Assembly (NCBI GenBank): GCA_017608305.1
Contig: JAFCGC010000010.1
Span: 1-39,299, forward strand
DNA from: Candidatus Pacearchaeota archaeon
Lineage (GTDB): Archaea > Nanobdellota > Nanobdellia > Pacearchaeales > GW2011-AR1
Length of the DNA: 39,299 bases
Direction: 5' to 3'
Shown: positions 4,005 to 10,179 of the stretch, in pieces
How positions within the stretch are numbered: the first letter of the stretch is position 1
How the letters are laid out: each line of letters begins with the position of its first letter
The notes under the pieces: model-generated
Seen by the model: the letters and a program-made list of their open reading frames with translations, nothing else
The model's database searches: none
What the model was told of the DNA's origin: nothing
Made by a program: the position numbers and the translations under genes

Positions 4005-6488
4005 TTACGCAGTTGTCTCAGTTGTGACAAGAGTAGCACTTGTTGATGAAGTACCTTTGTACTCTTTACCTGTGTCAACTACATTGTGAGTTAGGTAAGT
4101 CGCAGCGTTTGAAGTGTCTGCAGCATTGTAACCAGCAACTAGTAATGCGGTTTTTCCAGTGTAGAATTTATCTGCTACACCCTTAAGTAAGAATTCACCT
4201 GCACCAACACCAGTCTCGGTTGTCCATGCTTCACCACAATAAGCTCCACCTATAACAGTAGCAGCAGCTGAGTTAATACAACTTCCTCCAACAATAATTA
4301 GGTTCTTTGCACCTACACTTCCTACTTCAGTATCTTTAATGTAGATGTCTCCTAGTTTTGTTGATGTTGTTGTTCCTGCTGTTCCTCCACTAATGACAGA
4401 ATCTGCTTCAGTCAACAATACTTCCGAATATGTTTCTGAATCTCCTGTTGGATAATATATTTCTACATAATCCTCGTCACCTTTGGTATAGTGTACAATT
4501 CTTGTAGCTACACTATCATTTGTTAGGTAAGTCTCATAAGCACCATCTGCAATAACTTCATTTTCTTTACCATTTGGTCCACCTGTTCCAACATTTCCTA
4601 CTTCTGACACTGTATATTTATTATCACTTGTATCGTCTAGAGTAAAGTTAAATTCATAACCATTAAGTAAGACGTCGTCTTTATCTTCACTATACATCCA
4701 TAGATGATAAGTGTCATTACAACCTCCTACAGGAACAGTTCCATTTGTAAGATTAATCATTCCTTTAATTTCAGAATTACCTTCATAAGGTAAGATTATT
4801 CCTAATCCTCCCTTTGTAAATACTGAAAAGAAGTTCACATTACTACTTCCATTAAGACTAACAGCTTTTTCTCCACCAGATGTATAATTAACAGTACTAA
4901 TTGTTAATGTTACTTGTCCAATACTACAAGTATCTCCTGTTGTTTTCTCTTCACAAACTTTTGTCCATGTAGTTCCATCATACTTAGAGATATCTGTCTC
5001 ATTTCTTCCAGCTGTTTTATCTTGAGTTATTGTAGCTTTCAATAAATAAGACTCTGCTTCTCCAGTTACATTATATGTAGCAGGAAAATATTTGTGCACA
5101 TCACCAGTAGAATTTGATTGGTGGAAAGTAATTGAATCACTATCATGTGAAGTAGCTAAACGGTTTTCAGAATCTTCTCCAATTCCGATAAAAGCTCCAC
5201 CTGCATCACCATACAGAATTCCAATTGGGACAGTTCCATCCTTAATAGGAACTCTTAATTCAAATTTTTGGTCATCTGATTTTTCAAGAGTAATTTTTTC
5301 TTCTTCTGATCTTATTAAATTATTCATGCTAAATTTAACAGCTTCAAAACCTGGCATTACAAGTTCATAATCCGGAGTAATAAATGCTTCCTCTTCTGCT
5401 CTCCACTCAATTTCTATTTTGTCAAGTTTTTCAACACCTGATGCTGTTGTTCCTTTGTAAATTCTTGCAACAACTCCTTCAACAGCCTCATCATTAAGCT
5501 CTATTTCACCTCCTCCAGTAACTAGTTCTAGTTTACCAGATCCAATACTGAAAGTAGATGTACCTAATTCTCCAGATACTTCTAATTTACTTATATCTCT
5601 AACTCCTAGATAATATCCATCACCTAAACTATAACTTTGTCCAGTTTGTAATTTACCACTTGTAGGGACAACATCTCCATTTATTGTATATTTTACTTCA
5701 TCTGAGTCCATCCAAGCAACACTTACTTCATAGCTTTTGTCTCCTACAGCCACAGTTACTGTTTCATCTTCATTAACTGTTGCTGAATTAGCTGAATCAA
5801 GTAAAGTCATTGTTCCTGTAACACTTGTTGAGGTTCCATTGTCTAAATCAGATATATAATAGGTTTTACCTAATAATACTATATCACTACCTTCTATGTC
5901 TTCTAAATCTCCATCAGAATCAACATCTGATTCAGCATCTTGTAAAAAGTCATAAGTATAGTTCATAATAAATGTATTTGATTTTATATGGAAACCAACT
6001 GTTGGTGTTTTTAGGTCTGCTCCAATAAGACTTTCATAATCAGAATCTCTGAAATGTGTAAGTGCTGGAGAACCTAATGTTATTTTTTGTTCAAATTTGA
6101 ACTCATCATTATCATCAGCAACATAAGTCCCATCTGCAAGTAGAGTAGATAGATCATCTTCGGATATAGTTCCAGTAAATGTCTTCCAAGTATCGCCAAT
6201 ATTTAGCTTATCACTAGTTTTTTGCAGAATAACATAATCTCCTGTAGCAGTTGTGCTTGATTCTGAGCCAGTACTGCTCATGTAAGATTGTAGGTCTGAT
6301 CCTAGATTTGCTATTGCAGCAGCATCCATAGCACCAGGGCCTGTACCTTCAACAATTGCCACATCTGCGCTTCCTCCAACAATAAATGGTGCTGGATAAT
6401 TAGCAGCAGCAACTGGGGCAGCAATACTCATACCAGCTAACAAAAGACTACTTGCGATCGCTGAGATCTTTTTAAAATTAAATTTCAT
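4005..6488 (-). CDS. S-layer protein
   Basis: 827 residues. The start is a clear Sec signal peptide (basic MKFNFKK, hydrophobic core, cleavage after about residue 28) followed by NYPAPFIVGGSADVAIVEG, the entry typical of the S_layer_N family. The last ~110 residues match S_layer_C: NLIIVGGSCINSAAA, a C-x-G-E-A-W segment and LLVAGYNAADTSNAATYL. Together these are the hallmarks of the Methanococcus-type S-layer family. There is no C-terminal membrane helix. The ATG is preceded by a near-perfect Shine-Dalgarno (AAAGGAGGTCA), rare in this window, and by a 23-codon leader ORF whose stop overlaps the ATG. It is probably the major cell-surface lattice protein and strongly expressed. Confidence 0.93.
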   Translation of the reverse strand: MKFNFKKISAIASSLLLAGMSIAAPVAAANYPAPFIVGGSADVAIVEGTGPGAMDAAAIANLGSDLQSYMSSTGSESSTTATGDYVILQKTSDKLNIGDTWKTFTGTISEDDLSTLLADGTYVADDNDEFKFEQKITLGSPALTHFRDSDYESLIGADLKTPTVGFHIKSNTFIMNYTYDFLQDAESDVDSDGDLEDIEGSDIVLLGKTYYISDLDNGTSTSVTGTMTLLDSANSATVNEDETVTVAVGDKSYEVSVAWMDSDEVKYTINGDVVPTSGKLQTGQSYSLGDGYYLGVRDISKLEVSGELGTSTFSIGSGKLELVTGGGEIELNDEAVEGVVARIYKGTTASGVEKLDKIEIEWRAEEEAFITPDYELVMPGFEAVKFSMNNLIRSEEEKITLEKSDDQKFELRVPIKDGTVPIGILYGDAGGAFIGIGEDSENRLATSHDSDSITFHQSNSTGDVHKYFPATYNVTGEAESYLLKATITQDKTAGRNETDISKYDGTTWTKVCEEKTTGDTCSIGQVTLTISTVNYTSGGEKAVSLNGSSNVNFFSVFTKGGLGIILPYEGNSEIKGMINLTNGTVPVGGCNDTYHLWMYSEDKDDVLLNGYEFNFTLDDTSDNKYTVSEVGNVGTGGPNGKENEVIADGAYETYLTNDSVATRIVHYTKGDEDYVEIYYPTGDSETYSEVLLTEADSVISGGTAGTTTSTKLGDIYIKDTEVGSVGAKNLIIVGGSCINSAAATVIGGAYCGEAWTTETGVGAGEFLLKGVADKFYTGKTALLVAGYNAADTSNAATYLTHNVVDTGKEYKGTSSTSATLVTTETTA

Positions 6489-6556
6489 ATTTTTGACCTC
6501 CTTTCAACTCTGTAAGCCAATACATTCGAATAATCAGACTTTGTCCTCTTTTTCAT
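6485..6556 (-). CDS. Leader ORF, 23 codons, overlapping the S-layer start
   Basis: A short frame starts at an ATG preceded by GAGG at good spacing and encodes MKKRTKSDYSNVLAYRVERR followed by SKI and TGA. The TGA shares bases with the S-layer ATG (ATATGA). The S-layer Shine-Dalgarno lies inside this ORF, so translating ribosomes would cross it. This is the arrangement of a translationally coupled leader peptide. The peptide is strongly basic. A perfect GTTGTC-TAT-GACAAC hairpin (6570-6584) lies just upstream of its ribosome site. The ORF is read directly; whether it is translated is inference. Confidence 0.45.
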   Translation of the reverse strand: MKKRTKSDYSNVLAYRVERRSKI

Positions 6557-6718
6557 ATATTAACCTCTTGTTGTCTATGACAACTCCCCATCATCCTAAT
6601 AGCATAGGGTAGACTATCTGTTTGATGAGCATGAATATCTGTTTTGCAATATTGAGTGTGTTGTACATTTTAAAACCCTATTAGAACCCCGAAGGGTATT
6701 TTTGAGAGCCCAATTTTC

Positions 6719-6796
6719 TTTATAAAGGTTACATATAGATTTTTCCTCTATATATGTAAAACAGAGGAATATTAAGGTTTTATTTATAAAGGTTAC
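6719..6796 (-). promoter_or_regulatory. Duplicated TATA-type promoter of the S-layer gene
   Basis: The 14-bp sequence GTAACCTTTATAAA (this strand) occurs twice, at 6719-6732 and 6783-6796, each joining a possible BRE to a TATA box. An inverted repeat TCCTCT...AGAGGA (6744-6768) lies between them. Either copy would give a leader of roughly 200 nt or more. Within that leader is ACCC-TTCG-GGGT (6686-6697), a stem with a UUCG tetraloop. Two promoters for one S-layer gene would fit high or switchable expression. Start sites are not known. Confidence 0.5.
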
Positions 6797-6919
6797 GGTG
6801 TCACTAATGTATTAATACACATGTAGATTTTCTTATAAAACACAACATTTATTAACATAGAGTAATTAATACTAATATATATTATATAAGAACATATAAG
6901 TACAAAATAGATGTTTCAG

Positions 6920-7015: not shown

Positions 7016-7100
7016 TGAGGTTTTATCTGAATTCATAGAGAGTTGATCTGAGGTTTTATCTGAATTCATAGAGAGTTGATCTGAGGTTTTATCTGAATTC
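7016..7100 (+). repeat. 33-bp tandem direct repeats (two full copies, one partial)
   Basis: Two identical 33-bp units (7016-7048 and 7049-7081) are followed by the first 19 bp of a third (7082-7100). Each starts TGAGGTTTTATCTGAATTC. The AGGTTTTAT core is the same sequence that forms the ribosome-binding region just upstream of the ATG at 7161. The repeats contain in-frame stops and are not coding. They lie in the predicted leader of the winged-helix gene. Confidence 0.9.
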
Positions 7101-7103
7101 TTC

Positions 7104-7160
7104 GGAGGCAACATGAAAGATTCAGGGATGCTGGATCTAAAACCCGCAGGAGGTTTTATT
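7104..7160 (+). promoter_or_regulatory. Ribosome-binding region with hairpin and two candidate starts
   Basis: GGAGG at 7104-7108 precedes an ATG at 7113 by four bases. AGGAGG at 7148-7153 precedes the in-frame ATG at 7161 by seven. The second site lies in an inverted repeat AAAACC-CGCAGGA-GGTTTT (7139-7157), so the hairpin would partly hide it. The same cassette (GGAGGC, about 22-27 bases, GCTGGAT, an A-rich run, AGGTTTTAT) occurs degenerately at 6971-7026 and again at 11155-11215. Confidence 0.5.
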
Positions 7161-7514
7161 ATGGTACAAACAAAGACACGTGAGATAACAATAAGAGAAT
7201 CTAAAGGAGTGTTTTCTTTACTTAAAAAATCTGGAGTCTCAAAAAAAGAATATGATTTTGAAGGAATTTCAGCTTTAAGACAGCTTTTGAGTAATGAAAA
7301 AGCAAGGATTTTACATGCCATAAAACAACAAAAACCAAGATCTATCTATGATTTAGCTAAAAAATTAGATAGAGGGTTTAAATCTGTGAATGATGATGTG
7401 AAACTATTAGAGAGATTTGGATTTATTGACCTTATTGAAGAAAAAACCAAAAATCGTACAAGATTAAGACCTGAAATAATAGTAGATACTATTACAATTC
7501 ATGTAAAAGTATGA
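7161..7514 (+). CDS. Winged-helix DNA-binding protein (HVO_A0114-like)
   Basis: 117 residues from the ATG at 7161, chosen for its seven-base spacing from AGGAGG. An in-frame ATG at 7113 also has a Shine-Dalgarno and would add 16 residues. Positions 35-95 read as a winged helix: SNEKARILHAIKQQKP, then SIYDLAKKLDRGFKSVNDDV as the recognition helix, LLERFGFIDL, and a wing before strands at the end. This resembles the archaeal HVO_A0114 family of putative DNA-binding proteins, some annotated as antitoxins, but no toxin gene is adjacent. It is divergent from the S-layer gene and could regulate it or itself (inference). Confidence 0.75.
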   Translation: MVQTKTREITIRESKGVFSLLKKSGVSKKEYDFEGISALRQLLSNEKARILHAIKQQKPRSIYDLAKKLDRGFKSVNDDVKLLERFGFIDLIEEKTKNRTRLRPEIIVDTITIHVKV

Positions 7515-7515
7515 T

Positions 7516-8058
7516 TTAGCTATAAACTCTAAAAGTGATTTTAATTTCTTTTGGTAACTCTTGTATTGCTCCTCTAGAAGTAGAGGTAATATTTCCTTGT
7601 TCAAGCTTAATAATCTCTTCTTCATAAGAAATTATCCTGAGTTCATAGGCTTTTAAGGGCCTATTTTCTCCTATTTGCCAACTTTCTTGAATAATTTCCC
7701 TTAAATCAGTTTCTAACACATCACAGGAATTTCTTTGATCAGCACATTGTTCATTATTATAACACCTAAATAATAGTTTATTTATTGATAAATACTCAAA
7801 ATTACCTGAATCTTGACAATCTGTTGTATATTGTAAAAAACTATGAATAAAGTCTTTGACTTCATAGCTATCTACAGCTGAATCATCTGGGTTTCTTAGT
7901 GAAAATCCTAGTAAAATCAATAAAATAACAGATACTATGATGATTATCAACACAAATCCTATCATCTCTTCTTGCGAGCGTTTTGACCTTGGCAATTTAT
8001 TTCTTATCCCTTTCAATGTCAAGGCGCGAGTTGCCTTTTTATCCCTTATTTTTACCAT
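7516..8058 (-). CDS. Pilin-like secreted protein
   Basis: 180 residues. A basic ~27-residue head ends KRSQEEMIGFVLIIIIV, a class III (type IV pilin-like) signal with a charged cleavage site followed directly by a long hydrophobic helix. The extracellular part contains four cysteines (in TDCQD, FRCYN, EQCAD and NSCDV). Its ATG overlaps the end of the upstream gene by 7 bp, so the two are translated together. The head is longer than in most pilins. I recognise the signal type, not the family. Confidence 0.72.
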   Translation of the reverse strand: MVKIRDKKATRALTLKGIRNKLPRSKRSQEEMIGFVLIIIIVSVILLILLGFSLRNPDDSAVDSYEVKDFIHSFLQYTTDCQDSGNFEYLSINKLLFRCYNNEQCADQRNSCDVLETDLREIIQESWQIGENRPLKAYELRIISYEEEIIKLEQGNITSTSRGAIQELPKEIKITFRVYS

Positions 8059-8567
8059 GTTTTCTCATAACTTATCATTAATTTAGCTAATTCACATTTA
8101 TCATAATATTCTTCACCATTTCCTTGTTTGCTGCATAAAGCAACAAAAGTAGAAGCATCTGTTCCCACAACATTTTCTGAAATCAATCTTATTGTATTGC
8201 AGTCAGGGTAATTTCCAAGATTACATAATTTATTTCCACTTGTTTTTGGATAAATTTTTCTTATTTCTATGTTTGAAATGCCCCAAAAACTATCATAGTT
8301 TTGAATATGTTGTTTTAACATCATTACTTTATCTGCATCAATACAAACTGCTTCTCCATAATTAAATGAATTTCCGCAAGAAAATTCAGGAGAATCTGCT
8401 AATTTTGAGGCTAATAATACTGCATTTTTTTCTTCAAGCAAAGATGAAGATTCTTTTAAATCAGAGAATTTAAATCCAAAAACAAACATCCCAACTAATA
8501 CAAAAAATAAAGTAACTGCTAGTAACATAAATGCTGTTTGCTGGATTTTTAGTTGTGCTTTTTTCAT
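8052..8567 (-). CDS. Pilin-like secreted protein
   Basis: 171 residues. The N-terminus is MKKAQLKIQQTAFMLLAVTL, a short basic head, a small residue before Gln, and then one hydrophobic helix, as in class III signals. The rest carries six cysteines, including FSCGNS, AVCIDA, KLCNLG and YPDCNT, suggesting disulfides. The downstream pilin-like gene overlaps it by 7 bp. An 88-bp gap carrying the three-way inverted repeat element separates it from the upstream pilin-like gene. It is probably a minor pilin or pseudopilin, with partners among the neighbouring genes. No assembly ATPase is in the window. Confidence 0.7.
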   Translation of the reverse strand: MKKAQLKIQQTAFMLLAVTLFFVLVGMFVFGFKFSDLKESSSLLEEKNAVLLASKLADSPEFSCGNSFNYGEAVCIDADKVMMLKQHIQNYDSFWGISNIEIRKIYPKTSGNKLCNLGNYPDCNTIRLISENVVGTDASTFVALCSKQGNGEEYYDKCELAKLMISYEKTW

Positions 8568-8576
8568 TTTCTTTTT

Positions 8577-8657
8577 TTATTCTGGTTTGGGAACCTTTAG
8601 GCGTTTTTCTAAAACGTCTTTAACGGAATTTCTAATTCCAGTTTCTAAAAGGTTCAT
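8577..8657 (-). other. Structured intergenic element with a 26-codon ORF
   Basis: The gap between two pilin-like genes folds into nested inverted repeats. The outer arms GAACCTTTAG (8591-8600) and CTAAAAGGTTC (8645-8655) enclose two hairpins: CGTTTT/AAAACG (8602-8616) and GGAATT/AATTCC (8625-8639). On the transcribed strand both hairpins have an AGA triloop. The same stretch has a 26-codon frame (ATG at 8657, TAA at 8577-8579) encoding MNLLETGIRNSVKDVLEKRL plus six more residues. The structure seems the stronger explanation, as an RNA element or mobile palindrome. Both readings are tentative. Confidence 0.4.
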
Positions 8658-8666
8658 TTTCCATAG

Positions 8667-9584
8667 TTAATATATTCTACAATCTGCAATATAATTGTCT
8701 TCTTTTATTTTATCTACAAGATTCTTAATATAAGCAAGATTTGCAGAGCTTTCTAGATTATTTGTTAAGCTGCTCAATTCTAGTAAATTTAGATTTGAAG
8801 TACATCCTGTTCTTGAGACAAAATTAGCTTTGTCTCTGTATAAAAGAGCTAATTGATTTGTCCTCTGCATTAGTCTTTTTAATTGACATTCATAAATATC
8901 TGGAGAGGAAAATATGGCAGCATACATCAAAGCATTTGTTTCAAAATACACTCTTTTTTCTTTTTTATTTAAATAACCTAAATTATAATTAACAATTATT
9001 TCACAATTTGAATTTGATTCAAAACAAACTTTTATACTCTCATCAGGACAATCTTTTGTTAGTAAATTTTTTTGATTTAAACTTTCTAGCTCTTCTTTAA
9101 TCTCTTCAGGAGCATTAGAAAAACAATATTTTTTTTCTGCAGGACTTAGGTAAATTAAATCAGCAACTTTAAAGGGAAATGCAAAAGGTTTAGAAAAAAT
9201 ATAAAAATTTTTACCTTCAGCAGGATTTTCTGTAAAAAGATATTTATTATAAAAAACCACATCTAAGTCTGTTTCAACCCATTTGTTAAAACTTTTTTGA
9301 GAAACTTGGAGTATTTGTTTCCCAAAAATATTATCTTCTTCACATTTGGCATAAATTCTGCTCTCTATAGGCATTGTAAGAGTGCTGGTTTTTGCAGACT
9401 CAACACTTGTTGCAAAAGGAGTTAGTAAAATACCTATTTCTTTTCCTGTCCTAACACTCTGTTCAGTGTCTCCTACATTTATGAATTTTACTGCAGCATA
9501 AATTGCTAAAAACAAAATAAAAGCACCAACAATAATTGCAAAAAGCCAACTAAAGGATATTTGCAATGCACCCCTCTTTTTCAT
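8667..9584 (-). CDS. Pilin-like secreted protein, large
   Basis: 305 residues from the ATG at 9584. A GTG at 9641 would add 19 residues, but a TATA-like ATATTTAAAC at about 9607-9617 lies between the two, so the mRNA should begin after it. The start MKKRGALQISFSWLFAIIVG is a class III signal: KRG, a cleavage site, then a hydrophobic helix. The large extracellular domain has several cysteines (including YAKCEED, KYCFSN, KDCPDE and SNCEIIVNYN). Its head resembles that of the next upstream gene (MNKRGQIKLSFGMIFSIIL), so they are probably related subunits. Confidence 0.72.
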   Translation of the reverse strand: MKKRGALQISFSWLFAIIVGAFILFLAIYAAVKFINVGDTEQSVRTGKEIGILLTPFATSVESAKTSTLTMPIESRIYAKCEEDNIFGKQILQVSQKSFNKWVETDLDVVFYNKYLFTENPAEGKNFYIFSKPFAFPFKVADLIYLSPAEKKYCFSNAPEEIKEELESLNQKNLLTKDCPDESIKVCFESNSNCEIIVNYNLGYLNKKEKRVYFETNALMYAAIFSSPDIYECQLKRLMQRTNQLALLYRDKANFVSRTGCTSNLNLLELSSLTNNLESSANLAYIKNLVDKIKEDNYIADCRIY

Positions 9585-9753
9585 GAAAAAAATAAGAAAA
9601 CTTAGTTTAAATATTTCTCCATCCACCTCCCCAACCTCCACCCTAATTTATTATCTAACAAACAAGATCCTCTATTAATCAAAATTTTATCATAGTTACT
9701 CCTGAATTTTTATATTAATTATTTAGAAATATCGAATACGTAAGCATGAGCAA

Positions 9754-10179
9754 TCACTTACTTATTGTAACAAGCGCTTCATCAAATTCTTTTTGTAAGA
9801 TCATATTTATTTTTCCATCTATATTTGCAATACATAATTTTTCATTTCCTGCAAGAGTTTTTTCAATATCTAAATGTTCAAAATTATAAGGCTCTGGATA
9901 TTCCTCTAACATAAATAAAACATTTTCATAATCGTCTACAAAACAAATTGCTTGTATTTTTGTAGGTAACCTATATTCAAAAGGCTGAGAAGCTTGTGAA
10001 GACCGCCACACATTATTGATTTCATTTTGTAATTTCTCTTTAAATTTTGCTATTTCAACTTCATCCCTAAATTCAAGAAATTTTTTAATTGCATAAAAAG
10101 CAAATATAATAAAAGCAATTATTAAAATAATTGAAAAGATCATTCCAAAAGAAAGTTTTATTTGGCCTCTTTTATTCAT
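9754..10179 (-). CDS. Small pilin-like protein
   Basis: 141 residues starting MNKRGQIKLSFGMIFSIIL, a near-ideal archaeal class III signal with cleavage expected between Gly5 and Gln6. A hydrophobic helix follows to about residue 33, then a small domain with two cysteines (AICFVDD and KLCIAN). A TATA-like ATTTATAAATATA about 20-30 bp upstream implies a leaderless mRNA. It is the smallest of the pilin-like set and the best candidate for a structural pilin here, but abundance cannot be judged from the sequence. Confidence 0.73.
   Translation of the reverse strand: MNKRGQIKLSFGMIFSIILIIAFIIFAFYAIKKFLEFRDEVEIAKFKEKLQNEINNVWRSSQASQPFEYRLPTKIQAICFVDDYENVLFMLEEYPEPYNFEHLDIEKTLAGNEKLCIANIDGKINMILQKEFDEALVTISK

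Follow-up and report, generated by a model that had tools for sequence, protein, structure and literature searches.

A structured leader RNA with a predicted pseudoknot, conserved ahead of S-layer protein genes in an archaeal family

The S-layer gene and its predicted leader

The window, that is, the whole stretch of 39,299 nucleotides analysed here (contig JAFCGC010000010.1 of the Candidatus Pacearchaeota assembly GCA_017608305.1, which comprises 720 kb in 40 contigs), carries on its minus strand, at 4005..6488, a gene for an S-layer protein of 827 amino acids. Its product matches the Pfam family PF05124 (S_layer_C) with 33.7 bits (cut-off 23.9) and is a member of that family, and homologues of the gene were found in 159 of the 180 genomes of the archaeal family. 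The S-layer protein is often the most abundant protein of an archaeal cell, and little is known about how its synthesis is tuned post-transcriptionally. The relatives compared are, where named, Candidatus Pacearchaeota or Nanoarchaeota MAGs; homologues of the S-layer family were also met on contigs labelled as a Methanohalobium MAG (L098) and an Ectothiorhodospiraceae MAG (L102), where mis-binning is probable. Beside the S-layer promoter lies a divergent gene for a winged-helix regulator (7113-7514, plus strand; Pfam HVO_A0114, 63.1 bits), which is a possible transcriptional regulator. A 33-bp tandem repeat in 2.6 identical copies (TGAGGTTTTATCTGAATTCATAGAGAGTTGATC) occupies 7016-7100, immediately upstream of this gene, and a row of small proteins with hydrophobic N-terminal segments (MNKRGQIKLSFGMIFSIIL type) is encoded at 7516-10179 on the minus strand; judged by eye, these resemble proteins of the pilin type or with class III signals.

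All leader features described below lie on the minus strand. The predicted promoter has a TATA box (TTTATAAA, 6719..6726), the first T of which is 29 nt ahead of a hairpin, P1 (ACCC-UUCG-GGGU, 6686..6697), recognised from its sequence and hairpin score. P1 stands where the transcript is predicted to begin, at the distance from the TATA box that would be expected of an archaeal transcript start. Among 33 leaders chosen for this count, 32 passed; P1 starts 28-31 nt past the TATA box in 28 of the 32, and 23 of the 32 reach a P1 hairpin score of at least 12, compared with 156 of 960 shuffles. From these distances we infer that transcription starts at P1 or a few bases from it, and we lean slightly towards the view that 6700-6489 forms a structured 5′ UTR on the S-layer mRNA.

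Within this segment, a 5′ strand AUAGGGU (6675..6681) is predicted to pair with 6610-6604, the ACCCUAU stretch (6604..6610) in the loop of the hairpin P3, forming a pseudoknot. P3 itself (6587..6629) consists of the pairings 6629-6623 with 6593-6587 and 6618-6613 with 6603-6598, which are backed by the covariance model R1 and by covariation. It is followed by P4, a perfect GUUGUC-AUA-GACAAC hairpin (6570..6584) backed by covariation in relatives, by a lineage-specific insertion (6514..6566) predicted to fold into a hairpin P5 (6566-6552 with 6530-6514), and by the Shine-Dalgarno (SD) sequence of the S-layer gene (AAAGGAGGU, 6496..6504), whose core UGAAAGGAGGU is almost invariant among the S-layer leaders of the relatives.

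Comparative support for the fold and its gene specificity

For the comparison, 82 leaders were taken in which the S-layer match reached the N terminus, and the 230 nt ahead of the start codon were read. L009 and L042 were left out because their upstream DNA was too short, giving 80 leaders; L005 was also omitted from the sets of 79 used for folding and for comparing reading frames with shuffles. Many leaders have one order of elements in common, namely TATA box, P1, (U)CUAUAGGG, P3, P4, UAUAGAG..UGAAAGGAGGU and ATG. P3 carries CCCUAU in its hairpin loop, which pairs with the upstream AUAGGG strand as a pseudoknot, and P4 is a hairpin of the GUUGUC-AUA-GACAAC type, among whose loops UUCG types occur, as is expected if stability matters. 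A further pairing near the SD, between UUCUAUA and UAUAGAG, was a candidate found by eye and was rejected; many leaders have UAUACAG instead.

A pseudoknot-plus-hairpin score of at least 36 was reached by 30 of the 80 leaders versus two of 800 dinucleotide shuffles. Covariation was scored in a MAFFT alignment (A1) of 26 leaders picked for compact linkers, from which the window and the relative G007 were deliberately excluded. Its 19 named pairs were paired in 89.1% of the cells, 17 of them showed two-sided changes, and the covariation score of 0.422 (0.247 in shuffles) was reached by none of 500 shuffles. Sliding the 3′ partners by one base lowered the pairing to 38-46%, leaving a sharp peak at slide 0. 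A second set of 18 held-out leaders (A3), aligned without structure, was independent of model fitting, though not of detection by model R1, through which its members had been found; there 91.4% of the cells were paired and the covariation score was 0.449 versus 0.300 in shuffles, again with none of 500 reaching it. The P4 helix stood out in both sets, being paired in 99.4% of the cells in the 26 leaders and in 99.1% in the 18. Two-sided changes appeared in all 19 pairs among the 56 model-fitted matches, an alignment that leans towards the model.

For the pseudoknot count, 55 of these 56 matches were used (one was a duplicate locus), and L010, L020 and L035, model matches without a CCCUAU-type loop, were dropped for the missing motif. 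In 44 of the resulting 52 leaders an exact complement of the 6-nt loop was present upstream, versus 3.1 expected, and outside A1 it was present in 22 of 26 versus 1.3 expected; the exact partner was missing in the other eight of the 52. The three leaders with changed loops (CCCCAU, CCCCAC and CCCUGU) all had the matching changed partner. Predicted folding was more stable than the mean of a leader's own shuffles in 79 of 79 cases, by 9.4 kcal/mol on average (a difference of -9.4 kcal/mol). The accessibility of the SD was only slightly higher than in shuffles (0.43 versus 0.36). Comparison thus shows that the predicted fold, running from P1 through the pseudoknot with P3 and P4 to the SD, is conserved before S-layer genes across much of the archaeal family, and that this conserved RNA element is real is hardly in doubt.

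Model R1, which did not include the window's leader, finds it at 6631..6531 with 48.2 bits (E 2.3e-9); because of the insertion, the SD part forms a separate, weak R1 match. The 9-bp core of P5 can also pair in G007 through G-U replacements, as judged by eye, and L003, L057 and L079 have different hairpins at the place of P5.

At E <= 0.01, R1 matches were present in 110 of the 181 genomes of the family. All 54 matches of at least 48 bits in these genomes lie ahead of S-layer genes, two of the 54 having been assigned from pieces of 39 and 12 residues at the ends of contigs. With E <= 1e-5 as the limit, 62 of 200 genomes of the order had a match, of which one does not belong to the family; in a sample of the class, with a limit of E <= 1e-9, it was 27 of 378 genomes, including two that are not of the family. 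Weaker matches (below about 46 bits) precede genes for secreted proteins, FtsZ-type genes and a few more S-layer genes, the weaker S-layer leaders including those of G007, G088 and G143. A general leader of highly expressed genes was considered and rejected: the weak matches have mainly the 3′ hairpin and SD in common, and the strong ones belong to S-layer genes only. The hairpin-plus-SD ends of L189, L190 and L164 stand ahead of FtsZ-type genes; the one at L190 was identified as Pfam Tubulin/FtsZ, and those at L189 and L164 were assigned by eye. Another leader-like motif, CAUAGUUAURCGURUAAC...GUAUAAC followed by a hairpin and an SD, was noticed in L170 (G000:C33:10205-10289), L165, L168, L169 and L188. 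It precedes genes for secreted-looking proteins, and one copy is in the window's genome; four of 181 genomes have one match each to the strict pattern, and the reversed-pattern control gave none.

Two further sets of structured S-layer leaders, types B and C, were distinguished in other subclades, where the architecture is different. Type C (n=7) has, by eye, a loop pseudoknot of a similar kind, with two-sided changes in nine pairs that no shuffle out of 300 matched. The consensus of type B (n=13) is less certain, with three pairs and 37 of 300 shuffles; here RNAalifold pairs a CUUCCUC/CUCCUC stretch with the SD. In L011, L012, L016, L021, L024, L026, L047, L055, L059, L069 and other type B leaders the same stretch can alternatively pair with a local GAGG.

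Proposed role of the leader RNA

The folded leader probably controls the amount of S-layer protein made. As its main role we propose stabilisation of the mRNA and enhancement of its translation, a reading to which we give neither more nor less than even weight. The 5′-terminal hairpin P1 and the compact stack of pseudoknot, P3 and P4 would shield the mRNA from decay that depends on its 5′ end, and the fold would give the strong SD a defined setting that supports strong initiation; the mRNA of this abundant surface protein would then last long and be translated at a high rate. An RNase J family protein is encoded in the window's genome, scoring 387.7 bits to TIGR00649, just below the cut-off of 400.

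Leaders of the ompA type are bacterial mRNA stabilisers that protect from RNase J or RNase E, and bacterial S-layer mRNAs of the Lactobacillus slpA type have a long structured untranslated leader. The S-layer leader described here is like that of slpA in being long, structured, untranslated and attached to an S-layer gene, a likeness of general form only, and unlike it in that the fold is defined by covariation, and in archaea. RNase J and 5′ roadblocks are described for bacteria (PMC3997798). Bacterial 5′-terminal stem-loop or roadblock stabilisers resemble our leader in having a hairpin at the predicted 5′ end and a compact structure before the SD, and the resemblance extends to the gene, which presumably encodes an abundant surface protein, and to the presence of an RNase J homologue. 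Unlike them, the RNA in the window is archaeal and adds a conserved loop pseudoknot, and a stabilising role would here be an extrapolation. In Sulfolobus vectors, archaeal 5′ UTRs, two of S-layer genes among those tested, have served to raise expression (PMC11627041).

Speaking against the stabiliser are the leaders in which the exact pseudoknot partner (eight of 52) or the CCCUAU-type loop (three model matches) is missing, the small margin by which SD accessibility exceeds shuffles, and the enrichment of SD-crossing uORFs described below. The conservation of the AUAGGG/CCCUAU sequence, moreover, exceeds what a purely mechanical role needs, which hints at recognition. The main rival of the stabiliser, suggested by this strong conservation of the pseudoknot strands, is a regulatory switch, in which the pseudoknot domain would bind a metabolite, an ion or a protein, or sense temperature, and thereby alter access to the SD or mRNA decay. 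A core that is both pseudoknotted and sequence-conserved and that stands before one type of gene only speaks for such a switch, as does the anti-SD-like stretch of type B, which can pair either locally or with the SD and would be more in keeping with a switch than with a stabiliser. Candidate cis-regulatory motifs, both in Rfam and in the 104-motif survey (PMC2864571), resemble the leader in being short, covarying, often pseudoknotted and placed before one gene family. Against a switch, no Rfam 15 family matched at the gathering threshold in the window or at the loci of 16 relatives, and the best match below threshold within 6400-6900 had an E of 0.53 and lay on the opposite strand. Moreover, no conserved helix or alternative fold masking the SD was found in type A leaders, whose SD is slightly more open than in shuffles, and the P4 loop is variable. 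We regard a switch as rather doubtful and retain the stabilising and enhancing role as the preferred reading.

Small reading frames ahead of the S-layer start

An earlier note on this DNA had proposed that ribosomes on a leader frame could couple or attenuate S-layer synthesis, and its description of the locus was accurate. A 23-codon frame (uORF2, 6485..6556, MKKRTKSDYSNVLAYRVERRSKI) is present with a weak SD-like GAGGU of its own (6563..6567, 6 nt ahead of the ATG), its stop codon TGA (6487-6485) and the S-layer ATG (6488-6486) overlap in the sequence ATGA, the S-layer SD (6504-6496) lies inside it, and the perfect 6-bp hairpin now called P4 (6584-6570) precedes it. A conserved element that includes this hairpin does lie between the promoter and the S-layer start; what is conserved in it, however, is RNA structure and not the frame. 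A similar frame was found only in G007 (L004); elsewhere it is broken, the outcome that the note itself had named as counting against its proposal. The frame sits in the insertion between P4 and the SD that was met elsewhere only in G007 (71% DNA identity). The residues LAYRVERR common to the two peptides map to the 3′ arm of P5 and the SD. A second frame of 25 codons (uORF1, 6591..6668, MYNTLNIAKQIFMLIKQIVYPMLLG) is likewise common only to G007, from which it differs by 6/5/9 changes at the three codon positions, giving no clear coding signal.

Coupling or attenuation by these frames, with ribosomes that cross P4, P5 and the SD opening or blocking the S-layer start, would agree with the exact stop-start overlap at 6488-6485 and with the fact that both frames are open in G007 despite indels. 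Across the 80 leaders, an ATG-started frame crosses the SD in the same register in 28, with unrelated peptides and different starts and lengths; an ATGA overlap like that of the window occurs in five, and in 52 the register has no ATG at all. The 28 frames (of 79 leaders) nevertheless exceed the 14.0 ± 3.1 seen in shuffles, and 17 of 79 reach at least 17 codons versus 6.3 ± 2.1 in dinucleotide shuffles with the 50 nt beside the SD fixed, these shuffles ignoring relatedness and structure. A stop-free motif on the SD side was tried as the whole explanation and rejected, since the excess remains with these 50 nt fixed. By comparison, a frame of at least 10 codons in the uORF2 register appears in about 8 of 79 shuffled leaders. 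Other, held-out leaders gave 7 of 24 SD-crossing frames versus 1.9 ± 1.3, although a second frame was enriched there too. ATG is somewhat commoner in the leader frame than in shuffles, and stops are rarer only at codons 5-16 (0.047 versus 0.075) and not at codons 17-45, the depleted codons coinciding with the conserved P4 and SD motifs. In one genus several leaders have no stop over more than 50 codons of the uORF2 register, which would suit a translated frame, yet the close pair L156/L157 has two synonymous and nine nonsynonymous changed codons in 55. In the predicted fold of the window the AUG of uORF2 is buried (unpaired probability 0.04-0.13, that is, 87-96% paired), and of its GAGGU the first G is mostly unpaired and the next bases are paired. 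No terminator-like site was found within 6400-6900, so transcriptional attenuation is not indicated.

The 80 leaders and the close pair rule out the leader ORF as the conserved element, although the excess of frames at the class level is not fully explained. Judged by these comparisons, no uORF peptide is conserved and uORF2 alone is unremarkable, whereas the P4 hairpin is beyond chance; an open frame may in itself be under selection. We incline a little towards uORF2 being a by-product of the hairpin of the lineage-specific insertion and not a working part, and consider coupling or attenuation unlikely. Attenuation by leader peptides of the ermCL type (PMC10219788) involves, as here, a short ORF that precedes the gene and overlaps its start, and differs in that the S-layer leaders have neither a conserved peptide nor a conserved frame. 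As SD-crossing uORFs are commoner than the shuffles predict, lineage-specific effects on translation are kept in play, and the uORFs may have them. A variant that we hold to be quite improbable is a switch that senses translation, with AUAGGG serving as a pseudoknot strand and, in addition, as a weak signal at which lineage-variable uORFs start. Ribosomes on a uORF would melt P3 and P4 and alter S-layer initiation, and thus dosage; the peptide would be irrelevant and only the crossing of the SD would count, so that SD-crossing frames would be enriched without a conserved peptide. That the uORF has no role and the leader merely carries a good SD is highly improbable: short frames are frequent in AT-rich leaders, but covariation, the pseudoknot and the gene specificity argue strongly against a functionless leader, and the half of this reading that concerns the leader is already refuted, only the half that concerns the uORF surviving.

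In the main text of the 104-motif survey (PMC2864571) the terms S-layer, surface layer and Nanoarchaeum are absent, and no S-layer leader RNA of Pacearchaeota or DPANN was found in the literature searched, most subscription journals lying outside it. As a structured leader RNA the S-layer leader is new, although its general kind is known. It also carries a caution, in that a uORF predicted in one genome alone can be a side effect of a conserved RNA structure. Being covarying, pseudoknotted and tied to this one gene across a family of uncultured symbiont-type archaea, the leader offers a concrete RNA to probe and to transplant, and can mark S-layer genes in genomes yet to come.
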